The position numbers were made by a program, and so were the translations under genes. From Spinellus fusiger (lineage: Eukaryota > Mucoromycota > Mucoromycetes > Mucorales > Phycomycetaceae), in assembly GCA_025094145.1 (NCBI GenBank), contig JALLLS010000115.1, forward strand, positions 1 to 64,000: a DNA stretch of 64,000 nt, in the 5' to 3' direction. The notes beneath the pieces are model-generated. The model was not told where the DNA came from, made no database searches, and saw only the letters and a program-made list of their open reading frames with translations. Numbering within the stretch: the first letter of the stretch is position 1; every line of letters begins with the position of its first letter. Shown piece by piece: positions 1-25,973 of this stretch.

Positions 1-8
1 GAGCCAAT

Positions 9-25
9 AGTAATACTACTACAGT
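9..25. repeat. 17-bp duplication, inverted mate of 2537-2553
   Basis: Read on the minus strand this is ACTGTAGTAGTATTACT, identical to 2537-2553 on the plus strand; flanking bases diverge immediately on both sides. The first four bases are the tip of mariner element 1. It has the length and composition of the LINE target-site duplications seen at 18703/20970 and 22335/23298, but lies in inverted orientation. Confidence 0.9.
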
Positions 26-1380
26 GACTCGTGGAAATCTTACGTAGATTTTTCATTTTCCGACATACTTCTGTAATAGGAAATACTCATTCTTTGTCAT
101 AAAAACACACATTAAACACACAGTAGAGACTTCAAAATCGGATGAAGTATAAAGAAGGTCAATAGAATAATAAAAATAATTTTATTGGGTAGAAACCATT
201 AATATTTGGTGTTTCCACCATTGGCCTCAATGACGGCCCTACATCTCCGATGCATGCTGGAAATGAGGGCGTCTGTGGTGTCCTTGGGGATTTTCTCCCA
301 TTCTTCCAACAGAAGCACCTCCAAATCCTGGAGAGTGCTTCTTGGGGTCATCCTCTTGCGGATAGCCCTGTCAAGAACCTCCCAAAGGTGCTCTATGGGG
401 TTGAGATCGGGGTTCTGGGAAGGCCACCATGGAGGGGTGGCAATGGTCTCTTTTGCCTTCCACAACCTGGACTCTCTGCTCTTGTGGCAGGTGGCGTTGT
501 CCTCTTGAAGAACATAATCCACCTCTGGATTCATTGCCTTGAGTCGGGCCAGCTCAGGGCAGTATTCCTTCTTCAAGATCTCAATTTATCTTGCACTATC
601 AATACTGCCCTTCACAGGCGCCAATCTCCCGACACCTTCACCAGAGAAAGATCCCCACACCATTACGCTGCCACCTCCAAACTTCACAGTGGGCTTGACG
701 TTCTTCGGGAGCAGTCCTTCATTCACTTTTCGTACTACTCTGGTACGGTTGTTGGTGGTGACCAACTGGTATCTGAACTCATCGGACCAGATGACCGTCT
801 TCCAGTCGTCCTCGGTCCAGTGGAGGTGGGCCTTAGCCCAAGCAAGCCTCAGCTTCTTGTGCTTCTTGGTCAAAGAAGGCTTCTTGACCACCCTGCAAGA
901 TAACAGGCCAAGCTTCTTCATCATCTTTGAGAAAGTGGTCATGGACACTTTGGTGGTCATCTAGCTGCGAAGCTGATTCATTGTCTGGAATGAATCTCTT
1001 GCTACTTCGCGGGCAACTTCTCTCTCGTCCCTCTCTGTCAGAATGGGCTTGCACCCAGTGCTCTTCTTGGCCTTGAAGTAGCCAGTTTCTTTATATCTCT
1101 TTAAGATAAAGGAAACCGACTGCGCACTGACTCCAAACCTAGCAGCAATGGCAACCAGGCTGGTCCCATTTACGGTGGCCTCGTGAGCAATGAGGCATCG
1201 AGTGAAGTCATCGATATTTTTCTTCTTGTTTCCACGAGGTCTCATGGGTTGGTTGGTGGTGTTAGATGAGGTAGACATTATGGTGGAAAAGCAATAAATG
1301 AGGAATGTTTAATTGAAAAAAATTAAGGAAGAAACTAGGGTCTGAATTTGAAATCTACGTATGTTTTCCACGAGCCACTG
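22..1380 (-). mobile_element. Tc1/mariner element 1, dead copy
   Basis: This is a 1,359-bp DNA transposon. Its terminal inverted repeats of about 30 bp are imperfect: the left begins CAGTGACTCGTGG and the right, read inward, begins CAGTGGCTCGTGG; both end in TACGTAGATTT. It is flanked by the TA duplication typical of the superfamily (20-21 and 1381-1382). The transposase lies on the minus strand. The right tip abuts a truncated LINE, and the left tip abuts a 17-bp sequence that reappears, inverted, after that LINE. The ends look intact, but the transposase is broken, so the copy could move only with enzyme supplied in trans. Confidence 0.93.
199..1278 (-). pseudogene. Tc1/mariner transposase, two nonsense codons
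   Basis: Transposase that would cut and paste the enclosing element. The ATG at 1278 opens MSTSSNTTNQ, followed by a helix-turn-helix region (IAARFGVSAQSVSFILKRY). The catalytic triad is visible as VIWSDE, VLQEDN and PDLNPIEHLW; I count 35 residues between the second and third acidic residues, suggesting a DD35E type. The frame is open except for two in-frame stops: one near 961-963, where the related copy at 21085 has a glutamine codon, and one near 577-585, where that copy has histidine. No frameshift is needed to connect the three segments. It ends ANGGNTKY-stop at 199. The product is inferred to be inactive. Confidence 0.9.
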
Positions 1381-1393
1381 TATAATAATTTTT

Positions 1394-2536
1394 TCCTGAA
1401 GACACCCTCCTCTGGTGCCTTGTCCCGCAGCTTGAAGCACCCCAGAGTAAAGCCAGATGGATTAAGCTATGTGGCAATGTACTCTGGCAAAATACTCAAA
1501 GAATAGGACGGGCTCACAACCCTCCTAAATATCCATTAAAAGTAGCTTATCTTGAACGTCTTCAAAGTGAAATTACTAGTCTAGTACGTGGCAAGAATCC
1601 GCTGGTGACGGTAGCCCGTGGACTATGTAGACCTGTTTGGGATCCAATTCTTCTACTACCGTGCACGCGCAAAGAAAGACATCGTCTACTAAAATGGAGG
1701 ATTGCTTGGTTACCACCAACACCTTCAGTTCCTTGCCAATGTGGCCACCCAGCTGCCAATCGGGACCACTTTCTCACTTGCACATTCGTTGACCATGAAC
1801 GCTCCACGTTCTTGTTATTCTTAGTTCCTGCACCACCACAAGACATTCATCTAATTGACTATTGTCTAAATCTTCTGCCGCGCACGGTTAAGTCTTTTGT
1901 TAAATGGCGAGATCTTTGGCCCAGTTTGTTAATACTGCTGCAAGCCATTGATCGAGCCACGTCCACTCGAGACTTTAAGGTAGAGCCATCAGCTGGTAGC
2001 TTGCTCATTGAGGCTGCTGATGGGTGTGTTGAGCGGGAACGCCAACGCCGCCATAGAGTGCAAAGACTCTTGCAGCAACAGACGCTGTATCCTCACTTCT
2101 CCTCCGATCTCTCCTCTACCACCCATTCTTAACCCGTTTAGCAAAGCCAGAAGCTGCTAGTGTAGTTGCTGTATTTGTGTCCTCAGGATTGTCCGAGTTG
2201 CTCTAAGTATCCCTCGTTGGATTTCGAATCGCCACAGGATGACGGTTATCTTTTTGGTGTCCTGGTTTCCTTACTGACTTTATGGCCTTTTGGATGTCTA
2301 TTCATAATTCCCATTTACAATCATTTCTCATGTTTCATCATTTTTCATCATTTTTCCCTCATTGAGGTTTTATATTCTCTTTTCTTTCCGTCTCTTCTCT
2401 CTTTGCATTATTTTTTCACTTATGTATTTGAAGTGTTTCAATGTTTATTCTTTTTTTTTTCAAACGATCTCATAGGGTGGCTAAAATGCCCAATGCGCGA
2501 ATAGCAACCAACACCCAAAAATAAAAAATACTTTGA
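1394..2536 (+). mobile_element. LINE copy 3, 5'-truncated non-LTR retrotransposon
   Basis: About 1.14 kb from the 3' end of the same LINE family as the copies at 18720-20969 and 22352-23297. It starts abruptly inside the ORF (the segment beginning PEDTLLWCLVPQ in the longest copy) and runs through the C-terminal ORF and a 3' UTR to the shared terminus CTTTGA before ACTGTA. The upstream boundary lies 13 bp past the tip of mariner element 1. There is no poly-A tail. It is more diverged from the other two copies than they are from each other (for example HPAANRDHF against HPSANWDHF). Confidence 0.9.
1395..2132 (+). pseudogene. LINE ORF C-terminal fragment
   Basis: C-terminal part of a reverse-transcriptase polyprotein. 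The open stretch from about 1605 contains a zinc-knuckle-like motif, CQCGHPAANRDHFLTC, typical of the region after the reverse transcriptase in many LINEs, and ends TTHS-stop at 2132. Upstream, 1395-1604 reads as the same protein with changes (RWIKLCGNVLWQNTQ). The reverse-transcriptase domain and any endonuclease are missing, so it cannot encode a working enzyme. Confidence 0.85.
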
Positions 2537-2553
2537 ACTGTAGTAGTATTACT
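2537..2553. repeat. 17-bp 3' target-site duplication of LINE copy 3
   Basis: ACTGTAGTAGTATTACT directly follows the LINE 3' terminus. Its partner is not at the LINE's own 5' junction (there the sequence is ACTGTATAATAATTTTT, 1377-1393) but on the far side of mariner element 1 in inverted orientation (9-25). Confidence 0.88.
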
Positions 2554-3589: not shown

Positions 3590-3990
3590 CTCAGTATCAC
3601 ATTCTATGTTCATGTGTAATAGTGGAAGGACTAAATTTCATAAAAGTCTGTAGTTCACAGGCTACCATCATTCAATGAGTTTTTCATACACAATACTAGT
3701 GATTATGCTTTCCACCCGGATTTACTCTTGGGTTCATCAATTTGTGTGATTAAGCACCAGAGGAGAGTGTCTTCAGAAAGGGTAACTTTACTCACAACAA
3801 ATATAGTTTGTAAATAAGGAAGACAAGGGTAAATTCTAGGAAGGGAGACTCATTAGACAACCTGAATCACCACAAGCCTCTCAAACAGACAGACAAAATA
3901 ATTATTTCTATCGGGTAGAGGTACTTCCTGTTGGCATAACATATTACTAGCCTGTACTTAAGAACACGCCGAGCAAATGATGTTTTATAC
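3590..3990 (-). mobile_element. old LINE fragment, heavily decayed
   Basis: This stretch aligns by eye with the minus-strand LINE at about 19590-20090. Shared blocks include the one ending CACCAGAGGAGAGTGTCTTC at about 3756, plus diverged matches around 3648 (GTTCACAGGCTACC) and 3960 (AACACGCCGAGCAAA). Several internal deletions are apparent. It lacks the family's 3' terminus and has no coding capacity. It shows that the family has been in this genome far longer than the three well-preserved copies. Confidence 0.7.
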
Positions 3991-5335
3991 ATTAAAGAGA
4001 GAAAGGTATATTTCCTCCCTGCTCTATACCGACAATAGGAGAATAGATAAGGTCTTTATCAATCTCTTTTTATTTTATTTATATTCTAGCACTAAGAAAA
4101 TATTTTATCATTGTGGAAATCTCCCTCCCCCTTTTTTTAATAGGTACACTCAAAGCTACTCAATTTGGCTTGTGTCTGGGCTTTGGATTAGTCAATCAAG
4201 CATAGCCTAAATGACTTTCCCCGCTTCCCAGGGCACTGCCGTCTTGCTGGTGTAGGACTTGACATTGTCTTCTTGTAGGCAGTAACCAACTCTAGGACTC
4301 AGGGATGAAAAATGACAAATTTCAGGGTGCTATGTTTTCTTCAGCGCTTTGATGTAGTTGCTAAAGTCTATAGCACTCTTTATAACACATACATATCTAA
4401 GTCCTGAAGAGTAGCCATCTTGTCTTTTTTTATTATTATATATATATATAATGACAAGCCCATTATTTTCTTCTCTTGACATATTTTATCTGTACATTCA
4501 ATAAAGTACCACTACTCATCTTGTGATGTAAGTGTACATATGCCTAATTGACTATTGTTTCTTTATGATCCCAGATTATTACGGGTGTTTCCACGGACCT
4601 GTGAGGGTGACAGACTTATGTATTATTGTGTATTAGAACAGCTATAAAAACACCTAGTTTATTGTAATTATTTCATGTTACACTCAAGGTGGCAGATATC
4701 ATCTTAGGCATAGATGTAATGTTAGCATCAGATCTATTATTGATAAAGGACTTGTGCACAATAGCCGAGTGAGTCTTAATTCTTGAAGTTTTATACTTTA
4801 TAGCAGGGGTCTTGTTGAGTATGCGTATTAGATAATAAAATATTTTTAGCGAATGAATTTATAATAGAAAACAATAATACTGCCGAGTACATATTTACAA
4901 AATACTAATCAGTTTATTTTTTTGAATGGAAACAATGTTTTTGGATCTTCATTGTAGAACAAACACTGAGTCATGAGATAACTATATTAGTATGATACTC
5001 AATATGCATAGAGTTGACACTGTTTGCATTGTCACTCTTTCCTTTACCTAATTCAGATAACTGCATATTTTTTATCTTATTACGGCTGTCAAAGGCTTCC
5101 ATTTCCTCAGCAGTCATTTCCCCCCCTTTTCCGCTTTCTACGCGTTTAGTTTATGTTTATAGATGTTTGTATCATCCCTATATTATCTACCCTAGCCCCT
5201 TCCACAGGGCACATACCGATGTGCATATATATTTATATAAATATAAATAAATATTCGCCTTAATTCAAGTTCATTCGAGCTCTTTCCGACTGGTTTTATA
5301 AAACAGTCTATACATTCAGTTTCTAGTTTCTAGTA
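3991..5335. other. intergenic, no gene recognised
   Basis: AT-rich, with short ORFs only (the longest, about 78 codons at 5014-5250, is low-complexity and has no recognisable domain). It includes the promoter region of the zinc transporter that starts at 5336. A short TA repeat lies near 4436-4450. Confidence 0.45.
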
Positions 5336-16470: not shown

Positions 16471-18665
16471 GTGCTGTTATTTGGACCACAACCTTTACAT
16501 TTTGGACCGCAAAATCAACCTCATGAAAATGAGAATATCATAGATTTTCAGTTCAAAAACAACAAAATAACCTTTTCTTGAAGTATAAATTCAAAATATT
16601 AACCCTATTGTCAGTAGAGCCTTTAAAGGACAATCATCACTGAACCGAATGATATAGAGTAATTAATCTAGCTAATAGCATATTGTATTAGGCGTGAAAA
16701 TATAAGGGTAATGTCATTTTATTTTAATAAAGTTCTTTTTAAGTTTTATTATTGTTGGTTCATATTCTTTTTTATTGCATAACTCCACCCTATCTGACAT
16801 GGAAGAACTATCTACTTGTAATGATTTCGCAAATTGTGAGCACAAGTTTCAGTATTCGATGAACCTTGTCAATCAAGACATCGAAGAAATACAGGTTGAT
16901 TAAAAAATTACTGAGACCGACATGAAGGATGATGCATTTGGCAAAAACTTTACCATAGAGTGTGATCTTTGAGAGAATGATAAAATATCTGAAGCAGAAA
17001 GCAATGCCGATGAATGCTATGAATATGATGAAAATGAAAACTTTGTTAATGCGTAATTCACTATGGAATCACCTTCAAATCTCGGTTCATTTAGAACATT
17101 TGAATTGGCACTTGAATCTGCTTATTCTTTTGCAAATCAACACTTATTTGAATTTGTTAAAAGGTCAGATTCTGATGGAACAAGGTTCTCTCAGAAATTG
17201 TGAGTTGATATGTGATAGGAGAAGGTAGCCCGCCAGTGCTATGATTTCCCCAAAGTTGTGGTAACAGATCGTGAGCTGACACTGATGAATACCATGGAAG
17301 AAATTCTTCCCCAGGCTACTCATCTACTATGTCAATAGCACATATCTATGAATATTTTATCCAGCCTTGTAAAATATATTCTTGGGATTAATAAAGAAAA
17401 GAGTGACAAAATTCAAAGAGAATGGTGTACTCTTATTGAATACTCTTCGACAGAAATAAGCTATAAAGAAAGGTTAAAAAAGTTCAAGAATAAGTTGCTA
17501 GAGCTGGACACTATCAGTAGCGGAGGGCTTTAGGATTCAAGCAACTTTATACATTATATAGATTCAATATGGTTTATTTACAAAGAAAGGTTTGTTCACT
17601 TGAATTTATTTAACTTAAAAATCATTCTTTCAAGATAACTAAGACTGTATGTTTGTATAGATTTATATCTGCTTGGACTAACAAAATATTACACTTCAAC
17701 TTCCTCTTCTAGGTTTGAAAGTGCACATTCTCTTACGAAACGAGAGATAAGAACTAGTACTGGGGACCTAAATGTTGTATTTGAGCGCATTGATAATGTT
17801 TCAGTAAAATAATAATAATCAAAAGTGAAATAGCAGTGGGAAAGAGGCATGAAATAGATGTATTCCAAAAACCCAATTACGATATAAACAGCAAGATTTC
17901 AACTGTAGCTTACACAAAAGTTGCAGATGTTAAGAAGGATGGATTCTGTGGTTTCAGGGCTTTAGCTGTTTGGTTATATGAAGACGAAAAAAAGGGGTTT
18001 GAGAAGTTAAAACGACTATGAGAAATAACTTGATTCAAAATATCAATAGATATAAGTGTTTGTTTTGGAAGTTCTATGATTACCAAGACTGTAAGAAGCG
18101 ATTAGAGTATGGAGTATCAATACTAAAGAATAGACAAGTCTTTCTGGAATAGGCACTTATCATTTGAAAAGAGATACACAAAAGAAGGTATGTTATTTAT
18201 GAATGAATTCTTAAAAATATGTTATTTAATTTGTTAAATATTTTAGATCCTAGAGTACAAGCCATTTCCTTAGAATTAGGAAAGTATGATGAACTTCATA
18301 CATACTTATTATTGCATAAAGATGATTTCTAAGTATGATTTCTGTAGTAAAAAGGCTGTATTTTGATAAATACATTGACTTAGCCAAAAAACACAAGTAT
18401 ATTTTTTTAGTGGAAACATGAGAATTGAAATATTTTGCGGTCCAAATAACAGCATCCAAGAAGAAAACATAAGAATATCTTATTCTTCAATGATCAAAGC
18501 AATTGCAAAAAAATAACAGAATAGTCCTGTGGTAGTATTTTATTAGTTATCTCCTCATGTTGGATGAGATACAATACCTCTAAATTTTTTTAACATTTGG
18601 CCTATTGCTCATCATGAAAGTATGCATAATGACAAAAAAATACTTAATAGCGGTATGTTGTTATA
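16471..18665 (+). mobile_element. decayed Mutator-like element with FAR1, MULE and OTU-like parts
   Basis: Translated in pieces, the stretch follows the domain order of a Mutator-like transposase. A FAR1-type start near 17065-17195 (LGSFRTFELALESAYSFA) is followed at about 17240-17340 by the MULE core (VVVTDRELTLMNTMEEILP then ATHLLCQ). At about 17715 comes FESAHSLTKREIRTSTGDLN, the conserved ESAHS region, and at about 17935-18000 an OTU-protease-like segment (KKDGFCGFRALAVWLYEDE). WPIAHHESMHNDKK at about 18598 may be the end of that domain. Stops and frameshifts are frequent. An inverted repeat of about 18-20 bp around TGCTGTTATTTGGACC (about 16472-16490 and 18435-18455) could be terminal repeats, but coding similarity seems to continue past the right copy, so the right boundary is uncertain. 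No target duplication was found. Confidence 0.7.
16799..18021 (+). pseudogene. MULE transposase pseudogene with C-terminal OTU-like domain
   Basis: The ATG at 16799 opens MEELSTCNDFANCEHKFQ but meets a stop 34 codons on. The downstream pieces are the FAR1-like DNA-binding segment, the DDE core, the ESAHS motif and the OTU-like DGFC motif. At least one intron may remain before the ESAHS block (acceptor TCTTCTAG at about 17711). In OTU proteases the D-G-x-C motif carries the catalytic cysteine; here it reads DGFC. OTU domains fused to FAR1/MULE proteins are known in eukaryotic Mutator elements, which supports the assignment. Too many lesions remain for a working product. Confidence 0.7.
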
Positions 18666-18702
18666 AGTGACCCTCAACAAGTAACCGGAAAATTTCAAAT
18701 GT

Positions 18703-18719
18703 ATAAATATAAATACAGT
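18703..18719. repeat. LINE copy 1 target-site duplication, outer copy
   Basis: ATAAATATAAATACAGT is identical to 20970-20986. On the minus strand it reads ACTGTATTTATATTTAT and follows the LINE 3' end. In the inner copy the ACTG belongs to the tip of mariner element 2. Confidence 0.93.
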
Positions 18720-20969
18720 TCAAAGTATTTTTTATTTGTGGGTGTTGATTGCTATTCGCGCATTGGGCATGTTAGCCACCCTATGAGATCGTTTGAAAAA
18801 AAAAGAATAAACATTGAAACACTTCAAATACGAAAGTGAAAAAAATAATGCAAAGAGAGAAGAGACGGAAAGAAAAGAGAATATAAAACCTCAATGAGGG
18901 AAAAATGATGGAAAATGAGTGGAAATGATGGTAAAATGAGAATTATGAATAGACATCCAAAAGGCCATAAAGTCGGCAAGGAAACCAGGACACCAAAAAG
19001 ATAACCGTCATCCTGTGGCGATTCGAAATCCAACGAGGGATACTTAGAGCAACTCGGACAATCCTGAGGACACAAATACAGCAACTACACTAGCAGCTTC
19101 TGGCTTTGCTAAACGGGTTAAGAATGGGTGGTAGAGGAGATATCGGAGGAGAAGTGAGGATACAGCGTCTGTTGCTGCAGGAGTCTTTGCACTCTATGGC
19201 GGCGTTGGCGTTCCCGCTCAACACACCCATCAGCAGCCTCAATGAGCAAGCTACCAGCTGATGGCTCTACCTTAAAGTCTCGAGTAGACGTGGCTCGATC
19301 AATGGCTTGCAGCAGTATTAACAAACTGGGCCAAAGGTCTCGCCATTTAACAAAAGACTTAACCGTGCGCGGCAGAAGATTTAGACAATAGTCAATTGGA
19401 TGAACATCTTGTGGTGGTGCAGGAACTAGGAAGAACAAGAACGTGGAGCGTTCATGGTCAACAAATGTGCAAGTGAGAAAGTGGTCCCAATTGGCAGATG
19501 GGTGGCCACATTGGCAAGGAACTGAAGGTGTTGGTGGTAACCAAGCAATCCTCCATTTTAGTAGACGATGTCTTTCTTTGCGCGTGCACGGTAGTAGAAG
19601 AATTGGATCCCAAACAGGTCTACATAGTCCACGGGCTACCGTCACCAGCGGATTCTTGCCACGTACTATGCTAGTAGTTTCACTTTGAAGACGTTCAAGA
19701 TAAGCTACTTTTAATGGATATTTAGGAGGGTTGTGAGCCCGTCCTATTCTTTGAGTATTTTGCCAGAGTACATTGCCACGTAGCTTAATCCATCTGGCTT
19801 TACTCTGGGGTGCTTCAAGCTGCGGGACAAGGCACCAGAGGAGGGTGTCTTCAGGAAGGGTAGCTGCGCGCTCAACAAATTTGGCTTGCAGATAAAGAAA
19901 ACGAGAGTATATGTTAGGGAGGGCAGCTAATTGGGCAACCTGGATCGTTCCAAACCTAGCAGTAGCAGATCTAGCAAGACAAAGTCTCAGACAAGCAGAC
20001 TGACAGATTTGTAGCGGGCGGATGCCTAGTCTATTGACATTACAAATAGCCAACCCATACTCAAGGATAGGCCGAACAAAAACAGTATACGCTCTTAGGG
20101 CTGCTGTAATCCCAAAGCCATACATGTTTACACCCATTCCTCTCAGCTTTTGCATTACTGCAATTGCCTTGACTTGTGAGTGTGAGAAAAGTGCGTCTTG
20201 GTTAATACCTTGACGTGAAAAGGGGATACCAAGGTACTTGAAAGTATCACAGGTTGGAAGCTCGTTGCCATAGAGGTAAAACGGCACATTGGCCGGGGCA
20301 TTGAGTACTTCACATTTGGAGGGACTCCATTTGTAACCAAGGAGGGTCGAGTGAATTTCGGCAAGTGCCAGCATTCGATGTATATCTTCTGGGCAGCCCA
20401 TAAGAGCCACATCATCAGCATACAACAAACAATTCACAGGAGCCCAAGTAACAGTGACATGAGACGGACTGTAAGAAGAATCTGACGACTCAGAAGAGTC
20501 ATCCGAAACTGTAGAAGTAGGAAAAGGATTGTGAAGGGAATTCTGTAACTCGTCAAGCAATGCGTGAACAGTTGCCTGTGGGGAAGCAAAAAAGAAAGGA
20601 TTTCGAGCACAGAGATTAATGGACCGTCCCATGGTAGGTGGGTGCATACCAACCAGTATTGGGGATACCGAAGCAAACCTCAAGAAACGTGGAAGAGTAT
20701 CAATGAAAATAGAATAAAGTAATGGAGAAAGAATACTACCCTGTAAGACTCCTCGTTTAGGTGCAATGTCCCAGGATGCTACATTTTTCAGAATCACATT
20801 CACCATAATGTCATCAAACAAATTCTGTAGTAACAAGAGCAACAGCTGAGACACGAAGGGCATCAGCGACTCCCATATGACAGAGCGTTCCACACTATCA
20901 TGTGCAGCTTTAATATCTAGGAAGACGACGACTGGAGGTTTTGGATCTTGCTCTCCTGATCCTTGGGCA
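18720..20969 (-). mobile_element. LINE copy 1, 5'-truncated non-LTR retrotransposon
   Basis: The longest copy of the family here (2,250 bp). It is bounded by a perfect 17-bp direct repeat whose inner copy overlaps the left tip of mariner element 2. The 5' end is truncated inside the reverse-transcriptase region. The 3' UTR (about 18720-19117) ends without poly-A in ACTTTGA before ACTGTA. Over about 950 bp it is nearly identical to LINE copy 2, lying inverted on the other side of the mariner. The clade cannot be assigned safely without the N-terminal half. Confidence 0.93.
19118..20969 (-). CDS. LINE reverse transcriptase, N-terminally truncated ORF
   Basis: Open for about 617 codons without a stop. 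It enters in mid-protein (GSGEQDPKPPVVVFLDIKAA) with the reverse-transcriptase fold: the first catalytic Asp region VVVFLDIKAAHDSV, then RGVLQGSILSPLLYSIFID, then the YADD box in LLYADDVALMG, then thumb-like YLGIPFSRQG. The C-terminus holds a zinc-knuckle-like CQCGHPSANWDHFLTC. An ATG at 21058 is in frame, but its first 29 residues come from the neighbouring mariner terminal region and are not part of the LINE protein. The endonuclease and the first reverse-transcriptase motifs are absent, so this copy is not autonomous, but the open frame suggests recent insertion. Confidence 0.88.
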
Positions 20970-20986
20970 ATAAATATAAATACAGT
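20970..20986. repeat. LINE copy 1 target-site duplication, inner copy in mariner tip
   Basis: Identical to 18703-18719. Bases 20983-20986 (CAGT) are simultaneously the first four bases of mariner element 2, and 20981-20982 are its TA. So the LINE cut inside an already inserted mariner end. Confidence 0.93.
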
Positions 20987-22338
20987 GGCTCCTAACAAAA
21001 CAATGGTATTTTCAAATTCAGACCATAATCTTACCCTTAAATTTTTTTTATTAAACATTTTTCATTTATTGCTTCTCCACTCTAATGTCTACCTCATCTA
21101 ACACCACTGAACAACCCATGAGACCTCTTGGGAACAGAAAGAAGAATATAGATGACTTCACCCGATGTCTCATTGCTCACGAGGCTACCGTAAATGGGAC
21201 CAGCCAGGCTGCCATTTCTGCTAGGTTTGGAGTTAGTCAACAGTCTGTTTCCCTCATCGTAAAGAGATATAAGGAAACTGGCTGTTTTAAGGCCAAGAAG
21301 AGCACTGGGCGCATGCCCATTCTGAAGGAGAGGGACGAGAGAGAGGTCAGTCGCGAAGTGACAAGAGATTCATTTCAGACAATGAATCAGATTCACAAGC
21401 AGATGACCACCAAAGTGTCCAGGAGCACCTCAAAAATGATGAAGAAGCTTGGCCTGTTTTCTTGCAGGGTGGTCAAGAAACCTGCTCTCACTGACAAGCA
21501 CAAGAAGTAGAGGCTTGCTTGGGCCAAGGTCCACCTACACTGGGTAGAAGAAGACTGGAAGGCGGTCATCTGGTCCGATGAGTCAAAGTACCAACTCATG
21601 AGGACCAACAACCACAACAGAGTGGTGCGCAAGAAGAAGGAGGGGCTGCTCCCAAAGAACATCAAGCCCACCATGAAGTTTGGAGGTGGCAGCGTGATGG
21701 TGCGGGGATCTTTCTCTGGTGAAGGTGTCGGGAGATTGGCGCCTGTGAAGGGCAGTGTAGACAGTAGAAGACACATTGAAATCTTAAAGGACAACTACTG
21801 CCCTGAGCTGGCTCAACTCAAGGCACTGAATCCAGAGATTGATTATGTTCTTCAAGAGGACAATGCCAGTTGCCACAAGAGCAAAGAGTCCAGGCTGTGG
21901 AAGGCAAATAAGAGCATTGCCACTATGGAGGGGTGGCCCTCACAAAGCCCTGACCTGAACCCAATAGAGCATCTTTGGGAGGTGCTTGAAAGAGCAATAA
22001 GAAAGAGGATGACCCCAGCAAGCTCCCTTCAGGATTTGGAGGTGCTTCTGTTGGAAGAATGGGAGAATATTCCTAAGGACACCACAGACACCCTCATTGC
22101 CAGCATGCATCGGAGATGTAGGGCTGTTATAGAGGCCAAGGGTGGAAGCACCAAATATTAAGGGTTTCCACCCAATAAATTTGTATTTATTATTCTGTTG
22201 ACCTTCTTTATACTTCATCCAATTTACAAGTCTCTACTGTGTGTTTAATGTATGTTTTTATTACAAAGAATAAGTATTTCCTATTGTAGAATTATACCGG
22301 GGTATGAAAAAATACCATTGTTTTGTTAGGAGCCACTG
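20983..22338 (+). mobile_element. Tc1/mariner element 2, nearly intact
   Basis: 1,356 bp. Terminal repeats of about 30 bp match almost perfectly (each begins CAGTGGCTCCTAACAAAACA inward). TA duplications lie at 20981-20982 and 22339-22340. Inside the left end the sequence CAAATTCAGACC is shared with element 1, so the two belong to related subfamilies with diverged tips. A LINE is inserted at each tip, 5' ends facing the mariner, outside the transposase. Confidence 0.95.
21085..22161 (+). pseudogene. Tc1/mariner transposase, single nonsense codon
   Basis: A 359-codon frame from MSTSSNTTEQ to GGSTKY-stop is broken only by an amber codon at 21508-21510, where element 1 has leucine. HTH part: ISARFGVSQQSVSLIVKRY. 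Catalytic residues: VIWSDE, VLQEDN, PDLNPIEHLW, with 35 residues counted between the last two acidic residues. The glycine-rich FGGGSVMVRGSFS block precedes the second Asp; element 1 has VWG at the VRG position, as most relatives do, so this may be a second lesion. One premature stop in an otherwise intact gene points to recent activity of the family. Confidence 0.9.
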
Positions 22339-22351
22339 TACATCTAGCATA
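22335..22351. repeat. LINE copy 2 target-site duplication, inner copy in mariner tip
   Basis: ACTGTACATCTAGCATA, identical to 23298-23314. The ACTG at 22335-22338 is the right tip of mariner element 2. The last bases (TAGCATA) also resemble the LINE's own sequence at this point, so the 5' junction may involve microhomology. Confidence 0.93.
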
Positions 22352-23297
22352 GTACGTGGCAAGAATCCGCTGGTGACGGTAGCCCGTGGACTATGTAGAC
22401 CTGTTTGGGATCCAATTCTTCTACTACCGTGCACGCGCAAAGAAAGACATCGTCTACTAAAATGGAGGATTGCTTGGTTACCACCAACACCTTCAGTTCC
22501 TTGCCAATGTGGCCACCCATCTGCCAATTGGGACCACTTTCTCACTTGCACATTTGTTGACCATGAACGCTCCACGTTCTTGTTCTTCCTAGTTCCTGCA
22601 CCACCACAAGATGTTCATCCAATTGACTATTGTCTAAATCTTCTGCCGCGCACGGTTAAGTCTTTTGTTAAATGGCGAGACCTTTGGCCCAGTTTGTTAA
22701 TACTGCTGCAAGCCATTGATCGAGCCACGTCTACTCGAGACTTTAAGGTAGAGCCATCAGCTGGTAGCTTGCTCATTGAGGCTGCTGATGGGTGTGTTGA
22801 GCGGGAACGCCAACGCCGCCATAGAGTGCAAAGACTCCTGCAGCAACAGACGCTGTATCCTCACTTCTCCTCCGATATCTCCTCTACCACCCATTCTTAA
22901 CCCGTTTAGCAAAGCCAGAAGCTGCTAGTGTAGTTGCTGTATTTGTGTCCTCAGGATTGTCCGAGTTGCTCTAAGTATCCCTCGTTGGATTTCGAATCGC
23001 CACAGGATGACGGTTATCTTTTTGGTGTCCTGGTTTCCTTGCCGACTTTATGGCCTTTTGGATGTCTATTCATAATTCTCATTTTACCATCATTTCCACT
23101 CATTTTCCATCATTTTTCCCTCATTGAGGTTTTATATTCTCTTTTCTTTCCGTCTCTTCTCTCTTTGCATTATCTTTTTCACTTTCGTATTTGAAGTGTT
23201 TCAATGTTTATTCTTTTTTTTTCAAACGATCTCATAGGGTGGCTAAAATGCCCAATGCGCGAATAGCAACCAACACCCAAAAATAAAAATACTTTGA
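22352..23297 (+). mobile_element. LINE copy 2, 5'-truncated non-LTR retrotransposon
   Basis: 946 bp from the 3' end of the family, nearly identical to copy 1 in inverse orientation. It carries the last part of the ORF (from VRGKNPLVTVARGLCRPVWD to TTHS-stop at 22900) with the zinc-knuckle-like motif, then the 3' UTR. It is bounded by perfect 17-bp direct repeats. The fragment has no catalytic domain. Confidence 0.92.
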
Positions 23298-23314
23298 ACT
23301 GTACATCTAGCATA
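23298..23314. repeat. LINE copy 2 target-site duplication, outer copy
   Basis: ACTGTACATCTAGCATA directly follows the LINE 3' end and matches 22335-22351 base for base. Confidence 0.93.
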
Positions 23315-23577
23315 ATTAATACTATCATTTAGCATTTGATATTTTCCTGTATCAGCACACCACCACCACTATATTTATTGGTGGACTTTATATGTCTTGG
23401 TCATATACTCTTGTTTATTCATCTATTTTAAAGCATAGTTTTGCTGCTATTGTCAGTAATAAACTAATACTATGACCCCATTTCATACAGAGAAGTACTA
23501 TTCAATATTTACATTCATCAATGAATACAAAAGAAACCACAATTCTTTATAAGAGAACTTCAAGCTTCATCATTTGT

Positions 23578-24561
23578 TTAAAGATCAAGTGTACAGCTGG
23601 ATTGATCTTGTTCCTGCTTGATTTCTTCATTGTCTGTGATAGATTGAGATTCTACTTGCAAGTTAACCTCAACTTCGTTAATTATGGACTTGGTCTCAAT
23701 GTCAGTTATGGGCTCAAGAGAGACTCTTTCCCTGTATGCCTTCCAGATTCTATAAACAGCTGATTCGCTGATACCAACTACAGCAGCAATCCTCTTTTGT
23801 GTAGGGCCATTGACGGTGTACTCGTGTATAACAGCATTGCGTATGTCTTTATCAATAAGTGTCCTCTTTTTAGGAGGTTTAATACTCTTTCCAGTACTAA
23901 GTGCATGTTTCTTCAATATATTGCAAACAGTCGCTTGGCTAGTACCAATCATAATAGCGATCTTCTCCTGACTGAGGCCATTGACAGTGTACTCATGTAT
24001 AACAGTATTGCGTATGTCTTCATTCATAAGTGTCTTCTCTTTACCACGTTTAATACTCTTTCCAGTACTAAGTGCATGTTTCTTCAATATATTGCAAACA
24101 GTCATTTGGCTAGTACCAATCATAACAGCGATCTTTCTTTGACTGAGGCCATTGACAGTGTACTCGTGTATAACAGTATTGCGTATGTCTTCATTATCAA
24201 CTTTTGTTTTTCTATGATGTTTAATGATATTTCCAGTACTAAGAGCATGTTTCTTCAATATATTGCAAACAGTCCTTTGGCTAATACCAACTACAGCAGC
24301 AATCTTTCTTTGACTGAGGCCATTGACAGTGTACTCGTGTATAACAGTATTGCGTATGTCTTCAGTATTAATAGTTTGTTTATTAGAGTTTGTTTCCTTG
24401 ATAGTGGCTGTCTTCTCGATAGTATTTTCCTGTTCAGTAGTGTTTGTTTTTTCTATAGTGACATTTCTCTCGGTGCTAGCTGTTTGTTTGATGATGGCTG
24501 TTTCTTCATTAGTGGTTGCTTGTTCAATAGCAGTTGTTTCTTCAGTAGGTGAAATAGACAT
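23578..24561 (-). CDS. protein with four tandem helix-turn-helix repeats
   Basis: Intact 327-codon ORF starting MSISPTEETT. Residues 1-66 are a Thr/Glu/Ile-rich low-complexity tail. From about residue 67 a 57-residue unit (171 bp) occurs four times, starting near 67, 124, 181 and 238, each with EDIRNTVIHEYTVNGLSQ, then a turn (IAAVVGISQRTVCNILKKH) and a basic linker. The unit resembles the N-terminal HTH of Tc1-like transposases (compare ISKVVGISKSTV in the dead element at 24695), but there is no DDE domain. The fourth unit is the most diverged (NGPTQKRIA, AVYRIWKAYRERV). The C-terminus is acidic. It is probably a DNA-binding protein that could contact repeated sites. Function unknown; expression unproven. 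It starts 134 bp from the Tc1-like element. Confidence 0.75.
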   Translation of the reverse strand: MSISPTEETTAIEQATTNEETAIIKQTASTERNVTIEKTNTTEQENTIEKTATIKETNSNKQTINTEDIRNTVIHEYTVNGLSQRKIAAVVGISQRTVCNILKKHALSTGNIIKHHRKTKVDNEDIRNTVIHEYTVNGLSQRKIAVMIGTSQMTVCNILKKHALSTGKSIKRGKEKTLMNEDIRNTVIHEYTVNGLSQEKIAIMIGTSQATVCNILKKHALSTGKSIKPPKKRTLIDKDIRNAVIHEYTVNGPTQKRIAAVVGISESAVYRIWKAYRERVSLEPITDIETKSIINEVEVNLQVESQSITDNEEIKQEQDQSSCTLDL

Positions 24562-24694
24562 TAGGTGGTGGAAGTAAGGAATTGCTATAGCTACGTTTGA
24601 ATGTAAACAACTACTCCTGAGTTTAAAGAAGCTCCAAGTAAAGTAACAAGGAAAAAGAATCAGGGCCTTTTAAACACAAATGTCCTTCTTTATA

Positions 24695-25973
24695 CAGTCA
24701 CACACCATTAGAAAGGGCACGACCCCATAATTTATACATTTTTAAACATGATTCCTCTTCTTCTTTGTACCGCAGGATCCTCAACTGGAAACTCCAGAGT
24801 TTATAATAAGCTTGAAGAAAATAGAGTAATGGGGTGTTTACTGGCTTAAAAGAAAAGAAAATTACTCTTGGGTACCATTTCAAAGGTCGTTGGCATTAGC
24901 AAGTCTACTGTCTAGAATATCATTAGTAGAATCATGACCACTGGTACACCTCTACCAAAGCCTAGTTGTGATGCACCAAAACAAATTAACGAAAGAGACC
25001 TCAGACGACTTGAAGCCATTCTAAGAGGCAACCCATTTGCCTCCTATAACTACATAAATTTGGAACTTAAGGCATATGAGATAATCATCTGTAGAGCAAC
25101 ATTCATCAAATACATACACCAGATTGGGTTTGGTTCCTACTTTGTAGCACACAAGCCAAAGTTATATGAAGAAAAAATGTCAAGAAAAAGGCTTCGTTAG
25201 GTAAAGGAACAAGTCAATTGGACCCTTGAGGACTGAAGACATGTTGTATAGTCTGATGAGTTACGGTTTGAAGTAGAGGGTTACCAGGGAGGGACCAGAG
25301 TGATTCAAAAGATCGGAGAGAGGTATAAGGCAGCATAATGATCTGGAGCTATTTCTGGGCTGGTAGATTTGGGCCTTTGGTCTTTATTGATGGTAGTGTA
25401 AATCAGGACATATATGTCAACATTTTGGCAGAGAAATTTCTGCCATGGTTCATTGAATTAGATGAGAAAGAGAATAGGGACTTTATATTCCAAGAAGATG
25501 GGGTTGGCTGCCCTACAAGTGACTATACAACATGGTGGAAAGAGATACATCAAATTAGGATTCTTTGATTACTGGCCTGCCCAAAGTCCTGATCTCAACC
25601 CCATTGAACATCTCTGGAGCTGTCTTGATAAGTTTATCGATAACAAGAAAGCTAGTATTAATAATATCGATGAGCTCAAAACAGCTTTAGAATAATCTTG
25701 GGGAGATATCTACGTTGATCTTGCCGAACGTTTAGTTGGCTCAATGAAGGATCGCTGCCAGGCAGTTATTGATGCCAAAGGTGGCCCAACAAAATGTTAA
25801 ATAAAAGCTTTTTTTATATACATTAATATAAACAATATGTTAAACCAACTTTCTGTTGAATTTGAGGTTATTGGTATGTGTTTTGAGGTTGTGGCATTTA
25901 TATCCGTAAAGCATGTTCTTTCTCAGGATTTCAAAAAAAGAAAAATCGTGCCCTTTCTAATAGTGTGTGATTG
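24695..25973 (+). mobile_element. Tc1/mariner element 3, decayed
   Basis: 1,279 bp. Terminal repeats of about 28 bp (left CAGTCACACACCATTAG, right read inward CAATCACACACTATTAG, both continuing AAAGGGCACGA) and flanking TA dinucleotides (24693-24694, 25974-25975) mark the ends. The tips differ from elements 1 and 2, and no LINE is inserted at either end. Confidence 0.9.
24870..25800 (+). pseudogene. Tc1-like transposase, several stops and a frameshift
   Basis: Reading across lesions, the piece shows ISKVVGISKSTV (HTH), then LPKPSCDAPKQINERDLRRL, then VYSDELRFEVEGY with the first catalytic Asp, FIFQEDGVGC with the second, and YWPAQSPDLNPIEHLWSCL with the glutamate, ending DAKGGPTKC-stop. In-frame stops occur near 24914, 25198, 25234 and 25336, and a frame change is needed near 25560. 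It is clearly inactive and older than element 2. Confidence 0.88.

Follow-up and report, generated by a model that had tools for sequence, protein, structure and literature searches.

A long interspersed nuclear element (LINE) of Spinellus fusiger, a mould that grows on mushrooms, is located mainly at the ends of Tc1/mariner transposons. Two copies flank one such transposon, mariner element 2, in a 64,000-nt stretch of contig JALLLS010000115.1 (positions 1–64,000; hereafter the window), and a third copy adjoins mariner element 1. From these copies, a preliminary description of the window had proposed a LINE that parasitises mariner ends. This proposal is supported by the 3' flanks, the 5' junctions, the target duplications and the occupancy of transposon tips in the source assembly (38.08 Mb, 197 contigs), where junctions and tips were read as samples of copies. 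In this sample the location and polarity of the LINE, its duplications, the reuse of tips and the involvement of several tip families were directly observed, and we regard targeted insertion at mariner tips, by whichever nick, as close to certain. The element is a target-specific retrotransposon without long terminal repeats (non-LTR), with an apurinic-type (APE) endonuclease.

LINE copies and the transposon ends beside them

An exact ACTGTA comes directly after 130 of the 147 exact LINE 3' ends in the genome. The sequence was present at 28 of the first 30 loci and at 26 of the next 30, where near variants occurred at L031, L037, L052 and L054; six of these 60 loci repeat another locus. The 5' side was read at 40 resolved junctions; small stretches supplied 13 of them, and loci together with the window the other 27. 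These leave aside copies that were still within the LINE at the edge of the stretch (including C1c, C165, C46, C176, C188 and C168), two copies with similar upstream sequences, which are therefore not insertion junctions (C70, C123), one copy with no clear boundary or tip (L018) and duplicate entries of one locus. They also leave aside the copies of a related family 2 (see below) except L042, because their 5' ends coincide with the stretch edge, fall outside it or are shortened by divergence.

The mariner tip reads CAGT at 32 of the 40 junctions. A second box of the terminal inverted repeat (TIR) is present at 36 of the 40, compared to 6 of 40 TACAGT sites in the window, four of which are mariner tips themselves; the test is a loose one, since 51 of 710 window TACA sites pass it too. 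Transposase frames of the window match the DNA upstream of 35 of 39 junctions (the stretch of L011 was too short for this test), at 32–100% identity and within 1.6 kb. The upstream transposase runs in the direction of the LINE in 12 cases and in the opposite direction in 23, and hence both transposon ends are used. Such matches were found within 1 kb upstream of 34 of 38 LINEs, but in the 1 kb downstream of only 9 of 54. Outside the window, tip sequence and transposase similarity define the Tc1/mariner targets; elements 1 and 2 of the window have the full set of flanking TA, TIRs with CAGT, a helix-turn-helix (HTH) domain and DDE_3. Target duplications occur at 31 of the 40 junctions and measure 12–20 bp counted from the A, with 16 or 18 as the commonest lengths.

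Judged by the 3' flanks (130 of 147) and the 5' flanks (35 of 39), most copies lie at one defined target. This is in line with the preliminary description, which had expected most copies to be followed by ACTGTA, to abut a mariner tip and to carry duplications; the sampled copies mostly do all three, with duplications of 12–20 bp, and a majority at unrelated sites was not found among them. The arrangement of neighbouring 3' ends agrees with this. In the first 100 exact 3' ends, neighbours no more than 8 kb apart formed five divergent pairs, one convergent pair and three pairs with a common direction; a transposon with a LINE at each end should give a divergent pair.

The association also holds from the side of the transposon. 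Searching for tips by their sequence and reading the 260 bp outside each, we found a LINE at 40 of 78 sampled tips from three tip families: at 20 of 38 tips of family A, to which mariner 2 belongs, at 10 of 20 tips of family B, and at 10 of 20 tips of family D. The family-D transposase shares only about 32% identity with the mariner 2 transposase (L062, L006). The target is thus many Tc1/mariner families, not one. All LINE matches at occupied tips are oriented outward. The LINE starts 10–20 bp outside the tip in 37 of the 40 (A, 19 of 20, with the other at 1 bp; B and D, 9 of 10 each); in the remaining cases the match extends into the duplicated bases or the tip. At three occupied family-A tips (L123, L131, L137) the LINE is only 74–88% identical to the query, which suggests that the tip habit is probably older than the young copies. 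Empty mariner ends, which the preliminary description had recommended looking for, account for the other 38 of the 78 tips. Random placement would lead to an expectation of ~0.01 of 78 tips occupied, by arithmetic from 396 matches to the LINE tail and a 35-bp interval. Chance association, already considered very unlikely from the window alone, is rejected by the 3'-flank and tip-occupancy counts.

The tips fetched were 38 of the 40 listed for family A (106 first-look candidates), 20 of 35 for family B, and 20 of the 40 listed for family D (67 candidates). The samples exclude two family-A tips (C19, C109) and the own tip of the family B and D queries, all four of which are occupied; the latter two queries were themselves tips found beside a LINE. 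Two empty family-A tips (L138, L139) have the same flank and are maybe one duplicated locus. All 20 family-D tips (L161–L180) are flanked on the outside by TAC, and judging from these flanks the family D transposon may prefer a target longer than TA.

The LINE and its insertions in the window

Nearly full-length copies of the LINE (L062, L063) measure ~5.2 kb, with ~400 residues in a first open reading frame (ORF1) and 1,208 in the ORF2 frame. The 3' tail was found at 396 places in the genome with at most 3 mismatches, compared to 8 for a control pattern, and the LINE has about 390 3' ends in all. The element has the hallmarks of a LINE, with frequent 5' truncation, a fixed 3' end and target duplications of variable length. 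Its reverse transcriptase is of the LINE kind (RVT_1, 2.5e-19; human LINE-1 ORF2p in PDB, 5e-13), and the N-terminal endonuclease of ORF2 is of the apurinic type (Exo_endo_phos, 3.5e-6). The endonuclease residues N21, E48, D146, N148, D205, S229, D230 and H231, which we take to be catalytic candidates, are invariant in 6 sequences and conserved in four relatives. A sequence search of PDB with the endonuclease domain alone returned no relative, and fold comparison was used instead. The endonuclease model (mean predicted local distance difference test score, pLDDT, 73.8) had its best fold match in the human LINE-1 endonuclease, with the TRAS1 and R1Bm endonucleases within the first 15 matches. 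The presence of an APE endonuclease does not fit the R2 group, although no search was aimed at a second, restriction-like domain. The named ORF2 relatives above 30% identity are hypothetical proteins of Circinella and Phycomyces (47% in Circinella minor; 35% over 34% of the query in Phycomyces blakesleeanus).

A non-autonomous relative, family 2 (L034, L046, L051, L053, L059, L042), consists of LINE positions ~4–1270, containing the 5' end and ORF1, joined to the last 237 nt. It is about 68–83% identical to the LINE over most pieces, and ACTGTA follows the 3' end in the six copies seen. At L042, where the 5' junction is resolved, this relative abuts a mariner tip with transposase sequence upstream. 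We rejected the idea that the family-2 tails represent a separate LINE; they belong to an ORF1-containing, internally deleted relative of the same one.

The two LINE copies that flank mariner element 2 in the window (Table 1) have a common 946-nt stretch at 100% identity. Their 17-bp duplications are both perfect, as the preliminary description had claimed, and read ATAAATATAAATACAGT on the left (18703–18719 and 20970–20986) and ACTGTACATCTAGCATA on the right (22335–22351 and 23298–23314). It was also correct that the inner copies open with the four terminal bases of element 2, followed by TA and then host DNA, and that the 5' ends of both LINEs face the transposon, the left copy being on the minus strand and the right copy on the plus strand. 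Because the inner copies combine tip bases, TA and host DNA, both LINE insertions must be younger than mariner 2. The TIRs of element 2 are perfect over 30 bp (inverted repeat I2, 32 nt including TA, 100%). In Pfam, its DDE_3 match lies over the curated cut-off and its HTH_Tnp_Tc3_2 match slightly under it. The ORF2 part of the left LINE has up to 98% protein identity to other genome copies, and its RVT_1 assignment comes from Pfam on the full-length relative L063.

Table 1. Features of the window around mariner elements 1 and 2.
Feature	Position	Strand	Remarks
Outer copy, 17-bp target duplication of left LINE	18703..18719		direct repeat D11, 100%
Left LINE, 5'-truncated, 2,250 bp	18720..20969	-	3' end at 18720, 5' end at mariner; blastn within window
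ORF2 C-terminal part in left LINE	19118..20969	-	reverse transcriptase and C-terminal Cys/His motif (motif by eye)
Inner copy, left target duplication	20970..20986		host DNA, TA, then CAGT of mariner tip
Tc1/mariner element 2	20983..22338	+	TIRs 20983-21012 and 22309-22338, flanked by TA
Element 2 transposase, N-terminal frame (DNA-binding part)	21085..21510	+	Pfam HTH_23 at cut-off; HTH_Tnp_Tc3_2, 3.1e-5
Element 2 transposase, C-terminal frame (DDE domain)	21598..22161	+	Pfam DDE_3, 6.6e-12
Inner copy, right target duplication	22335..22351		ACTG of mariner tip, TA, host DNA; D12, 100%
Right LINE, 5'-truncated	22352..23297	+	3' end ..AATACTTTGA at 23297
Outer copy, right target duplication	23298..23314		direct repeat D12
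Inverted mate of 2537-2553	9..25		outside left tip of element 1
Tc1/mariner element 1	22..1380	-	tips TA/CAGTGACTCG.. and ..CGAGCCACTG/TA; DDE_3
Third LINE, 5'-truncated, abutting right tip of element 1	about 1393..2536	+
Third-LINE 3' flank	2537..2553		ACTGTAGTAGTATTACT

The duplication rebuilds the mariner tip and its TA, so that the same tip can be hit again, and this was seen twice. In C26, three copies of ACTGTATTAGTTTGTGA separate the tip, one LINE, a second LINE and host DNA. In C1, a full-length LINE and an ORF1-only element are bordered by ACTGTATAAAAAAAGC, which occurs there in three copies.

A cassette of LINE, mariner and LINE may also occur in inverted form. A 10-kb contig, C109 (L002, L004), corresponds to window positions 17965–24968, but here the same two LINE copies enclose the mariner 2 segment in reverse orientation. 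Identity to the window amounts to 100% over 1,710 nt on the left side (flank and 3' part of the LINE) and to 99.5% over 1,867 nt on the right side. Both duplications are intact only in the window orientation and not in that of C109, which makes the window order probably the ancestral one. Judging from this alignment, C109 would be either a true inversion (polymorphism) or an assembly alternative.

Mariner element 1, which is 84.6% identical to element 2, bears the same sign of inversion, in that the mate of the third-LINE flank lies inverted at its far tip. The preliminary description had counted the third LINE as an insertion adjoining this element. It does abut the right tip, but no matching duplicate lies beside it, the mate being the inverted one at 9–25; the normal duplication is missing because the mariner 1 cassette has apparently been inverted. 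Window positions 1–5 read GGCTC on the minus strand and resemble the LINE 5' start, and window position 1 is also position 1 of the contig. What lies beside 9–25 is the apparent 5' start of an off-contig LINE.

Elsewhere in the window, more diverged Tc1/mariner transposase remnants, 29–45% identical, are found at 4153–4404 (minus strand) and 25087–25794 (plus strand), and a diverged LINE fragment at 3718–3846 (minus strand) is 53% identical to ORF2 residues 941–983. The window also holds an STT3 gene, which matches a Spinellus fusiger protein at 96% identity over 94% of the query. A frame of 327 residues at 23578–24561 (minus strand) contains about four tandem transposase-like HTH repeats (171-bp DNA repeat; HTH_23, HTH_Tnp_IS630). 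It has at least 120 matches genome-wide, in open frames of up to 637 residues, and these possibly represent a family of arrayed DNA-binding domains derived from Tc1/mariner transposases.

Nick position, mechanism and alternatives

The 21 distinct targets have in common the TA, CAGTG, an A-rich stretch at 12–18 and Ts at 28–30. Their host side contributes only 0.5 bit next to the TA and at most 0.25 bit further out. The preliminary description had the priming strand end in TACAGT-3', at the junction of TA and mariner tip. Our comparison of duplication copies makes TACA-3', 2 nt inside the tip, the more probable end, in which case the A and C of ACTG were probably supplied by the LINE RNA. The two copies disagree at the A and C in 7 of 62 comparisons, whereas the ten positions that follow give 3 in 310 (Fisher p 2e-4). 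This contrast is indicative only, because duplications were chosen on those ten positions, which favours agreement there. In six of the seven deviations the 3' copy keeps AC and the transposon tip differs.

Insertion would proceed by target-primed reverse transcription. The strand that reads from host DNA through TACAGTG into the transposon would be nicked 2–4 nt inside the tip, most likely after TACA, and we infer that the first nick is made by the LINE's own APE endonuclease. The free 3' end ..TACA would then prime complementary DNA (cDNA) synthesis on a LINE RNA ending in ..UUUGAAC, presumably by pairing with it. Pairing with a following UGUA possibly helps. The second strand would be cut ~14–16 bp outward, in host DNA of almost any sequence. 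With the second cut on that side, the duplication would comprise what remains of the tip, the TA and roughly a dozen bases of host DNA. The LINE would come to lie outside the transposon with its 5' end facing it. Tip and TA would be regenerated, leaving the transposon ends intact and the site reusable. We consider this whole account of a two-ORF LINE, including a first nick by its own endonuclease, to be probable; it ranks below targeted insertion as such only because it includes this putative first nick.

Several observations weigh against this account. Exact ACTGTA is lacking next to 17 of the 147 exact tails, and 9 of the 40 junctions have no matching duplication (C116, C121, C7, C51, L006, L026, L029, L052, W1). 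Among the latter, L052 seems to be a real duplication with a local change, and W1 an inversion. Transposase sequence was not detectable at 4 of 39 junctions (L017, L026, L037, L058), and the old copy L018, outside the 40, has no recognisable tip. At L021 the deviation is reversed, with the 3' copy deviating, which counts against an RNA-supplied AC. Furthermore, a 14-nt tip model (TA plus 12 nt) at 80% sensitivity matches 134 sites in the window, and hence the selectivity is not explained if the LINE endonuclease does no more than recognise a short motif. The LINE-first and tip-first samples overlap in some loci (e.g. L151, L157, L173), so that the two tests are not wholly independent, and all data come from one genome.

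The excess of motif sites over actual tips would be easier to understand if the first nick were made by the Tc1/mariner transposase at the TIR, with the LINE reverse transcriptase priming from TACA-3', or if the transposase recruited the LINE machinery. Tc1/mariner transposases cut the same (non-transferred) strand 2–3 nt inside the tip, and the probable LINE nick, 2 nt inside, coincides with that cut. The targets span transposases as little as 32% identical to those of the window, with equal occupancy in the distant family D (10 of 20), and the bases that they have in common are the TA, CAGTG and the A/T tracts of the TIRs. Yet the LINE retains an apparently intact APE endonuclease, and insertion leaves the transposon where it was, which would require excision to halt at one nick. 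The regular second cut 14–16 bp away also resembles LINE activity, and the 2-nt position rests on seven deviating copies, one of them contrary. We therefore see a nick by the transposase as possible, but rather unlikely. A little more doubtful is a broader version, in which a transposase nick or bound transposase at any Tc1/mariner end serves the LINE as primer source. The LINE would then be specific for an entire superfamily of DNA transposons, following every family that keeps this cleavage chemistry while leaving the ends of its carrier undamaged, and would build up invertible LINE-mariner-LINE cassettes.

Two other explanations dispense with targeting of the tip. One holds that ACTGTA is the LINE's own 3' terminus and that its adjacency to mariners reflects a preference for any TACAGT or for AT-rich, mariner-rich regions. 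The AC is indeed probably LINE-encoded, and mariners are common in the genome, but transposase sequence is far more frequent upstream (35 of 39) than in the 1 kb downstream (9 of 54). Moreover, only 4 of the 15 TACAGTG sites in the window are mariner tips, and the LINEs start mostly 10–20 bp from tips and are not scattered over the 260 bp read. The flank comparison leads us to reject such a preference in the sample, as very improbable. The other explanation reverses the order of events, with mariners inserting into or next to existing LINE 3' flanks, where the usual ACTGTA offers TA sites beside a pseudo-tip, or with LINE and mariner moving as a composite. This is highly improbable in the sample, since 31 of the 40 LINEs are bounded by a duplication that holds mariner tip bases plus private host DNA, and since the copies have many different 5' truncation points, each lying directly at the duplication. 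Successive LINEs on the same tip and 38 tips without a LINE argue against it as well. Duplications, truncation points and empty tips thus reject both mariner insertion into the LINE and composite movement, and insertion of the LINE at pre-existing mariner tips is the reading that we retain.

Relation to known target-specific LINEs

The R1 clade, with R1, TRAS and SART, targets ribosomal DNA (rDNA) and telomeric repeats. It resembles the Spinellus LINE in its APE endonuclease and site-specific insertion, and the Spinellus endonuclease model matches the TRAS1 and R1Bm structures. In contrast, these elements use host repeats with a fixed sequence on both sides, whereas the Spinellus LINE has a specified sequence only on the transposon side and a nearly random one on the host side. 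The HAL1-like elements are ORF1-only LINE derivatives. The Spinellus genome likewise has an internally deleted, ORF1-containing LINE relative with the same 3' tail, but this relative abuts a mariner tip where its 5' junction is resolved (L042). NeSL targets the spliced leader. R2, NeSL, Utopia and Keno are target-specific LINEs with exact 3' junctions, as is the Spinellus element, but their targets are genes (rDNA, spliced leader, U2) and independent of a DNA transposon. According to a published account, Keno is APE-type, like the Spinellus LINE, while the Utopia, R2 and NeSL clades have a restriction-like endonuclease (PMC4640811).

Among the Mucorales, Grem-LINE1 of Mucor is described as a pericentric element with an AP endonuclease, a reverse transcriptase and a zinc finger (PMC7377519). 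By that description it resembles the Spinellus LINE as a mucoralean LINE with AP endonuclease and reverse transcriptase (PMC7377519). The words 'mariner' and 'Tc1' do not occur in the main text of that paper (PMC7377519). Full-text searches, with most subscription papers outside their coverage, returned no report whose title or abstract presents a LINE aimed at the ends of Tc1/mariner elements.

In this genome one class of mobile element clearly lives on another, and about half of the sampled ends are occupied. Since the tip is restored by the duplication, insertion ought to do no harm to the ends of the carrier transposon, and insertion next to an existing transposon should also spare host genes. 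The Spinellus LINE offers a natural system in which to study site choice by an APE endonuclease, the possible priming of target-primed reverse transcription by a transposase nick, and the effect of a moving target on the survival of a LINE. Tool builders would have in it a natural LINE whose insertions lie at Tc1/mariner ends flanked by TA.

The nearest precedent known to us is Tx1L of Xenopus (Tx1 clade), which inserts into the piggyBac-like transposon Tx1D. Both are APE-type non-LTR retrotransposons that target another mobile element. They differ in that Tx1L uses one site inside one transposon family, whereas the Spinellus LINE uses the terminal tips of several Tc1/mariner families, which are rebuilt afterwards. 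To our knowledge, the target-specific LINEs known so far use a fixed sequence (rDNA, small nuclear RNA, telomere or microsatellite). The target of the Spinellus LINE, the ends of several Tc1/mariner families with a near-random host side, differs from those known targets.

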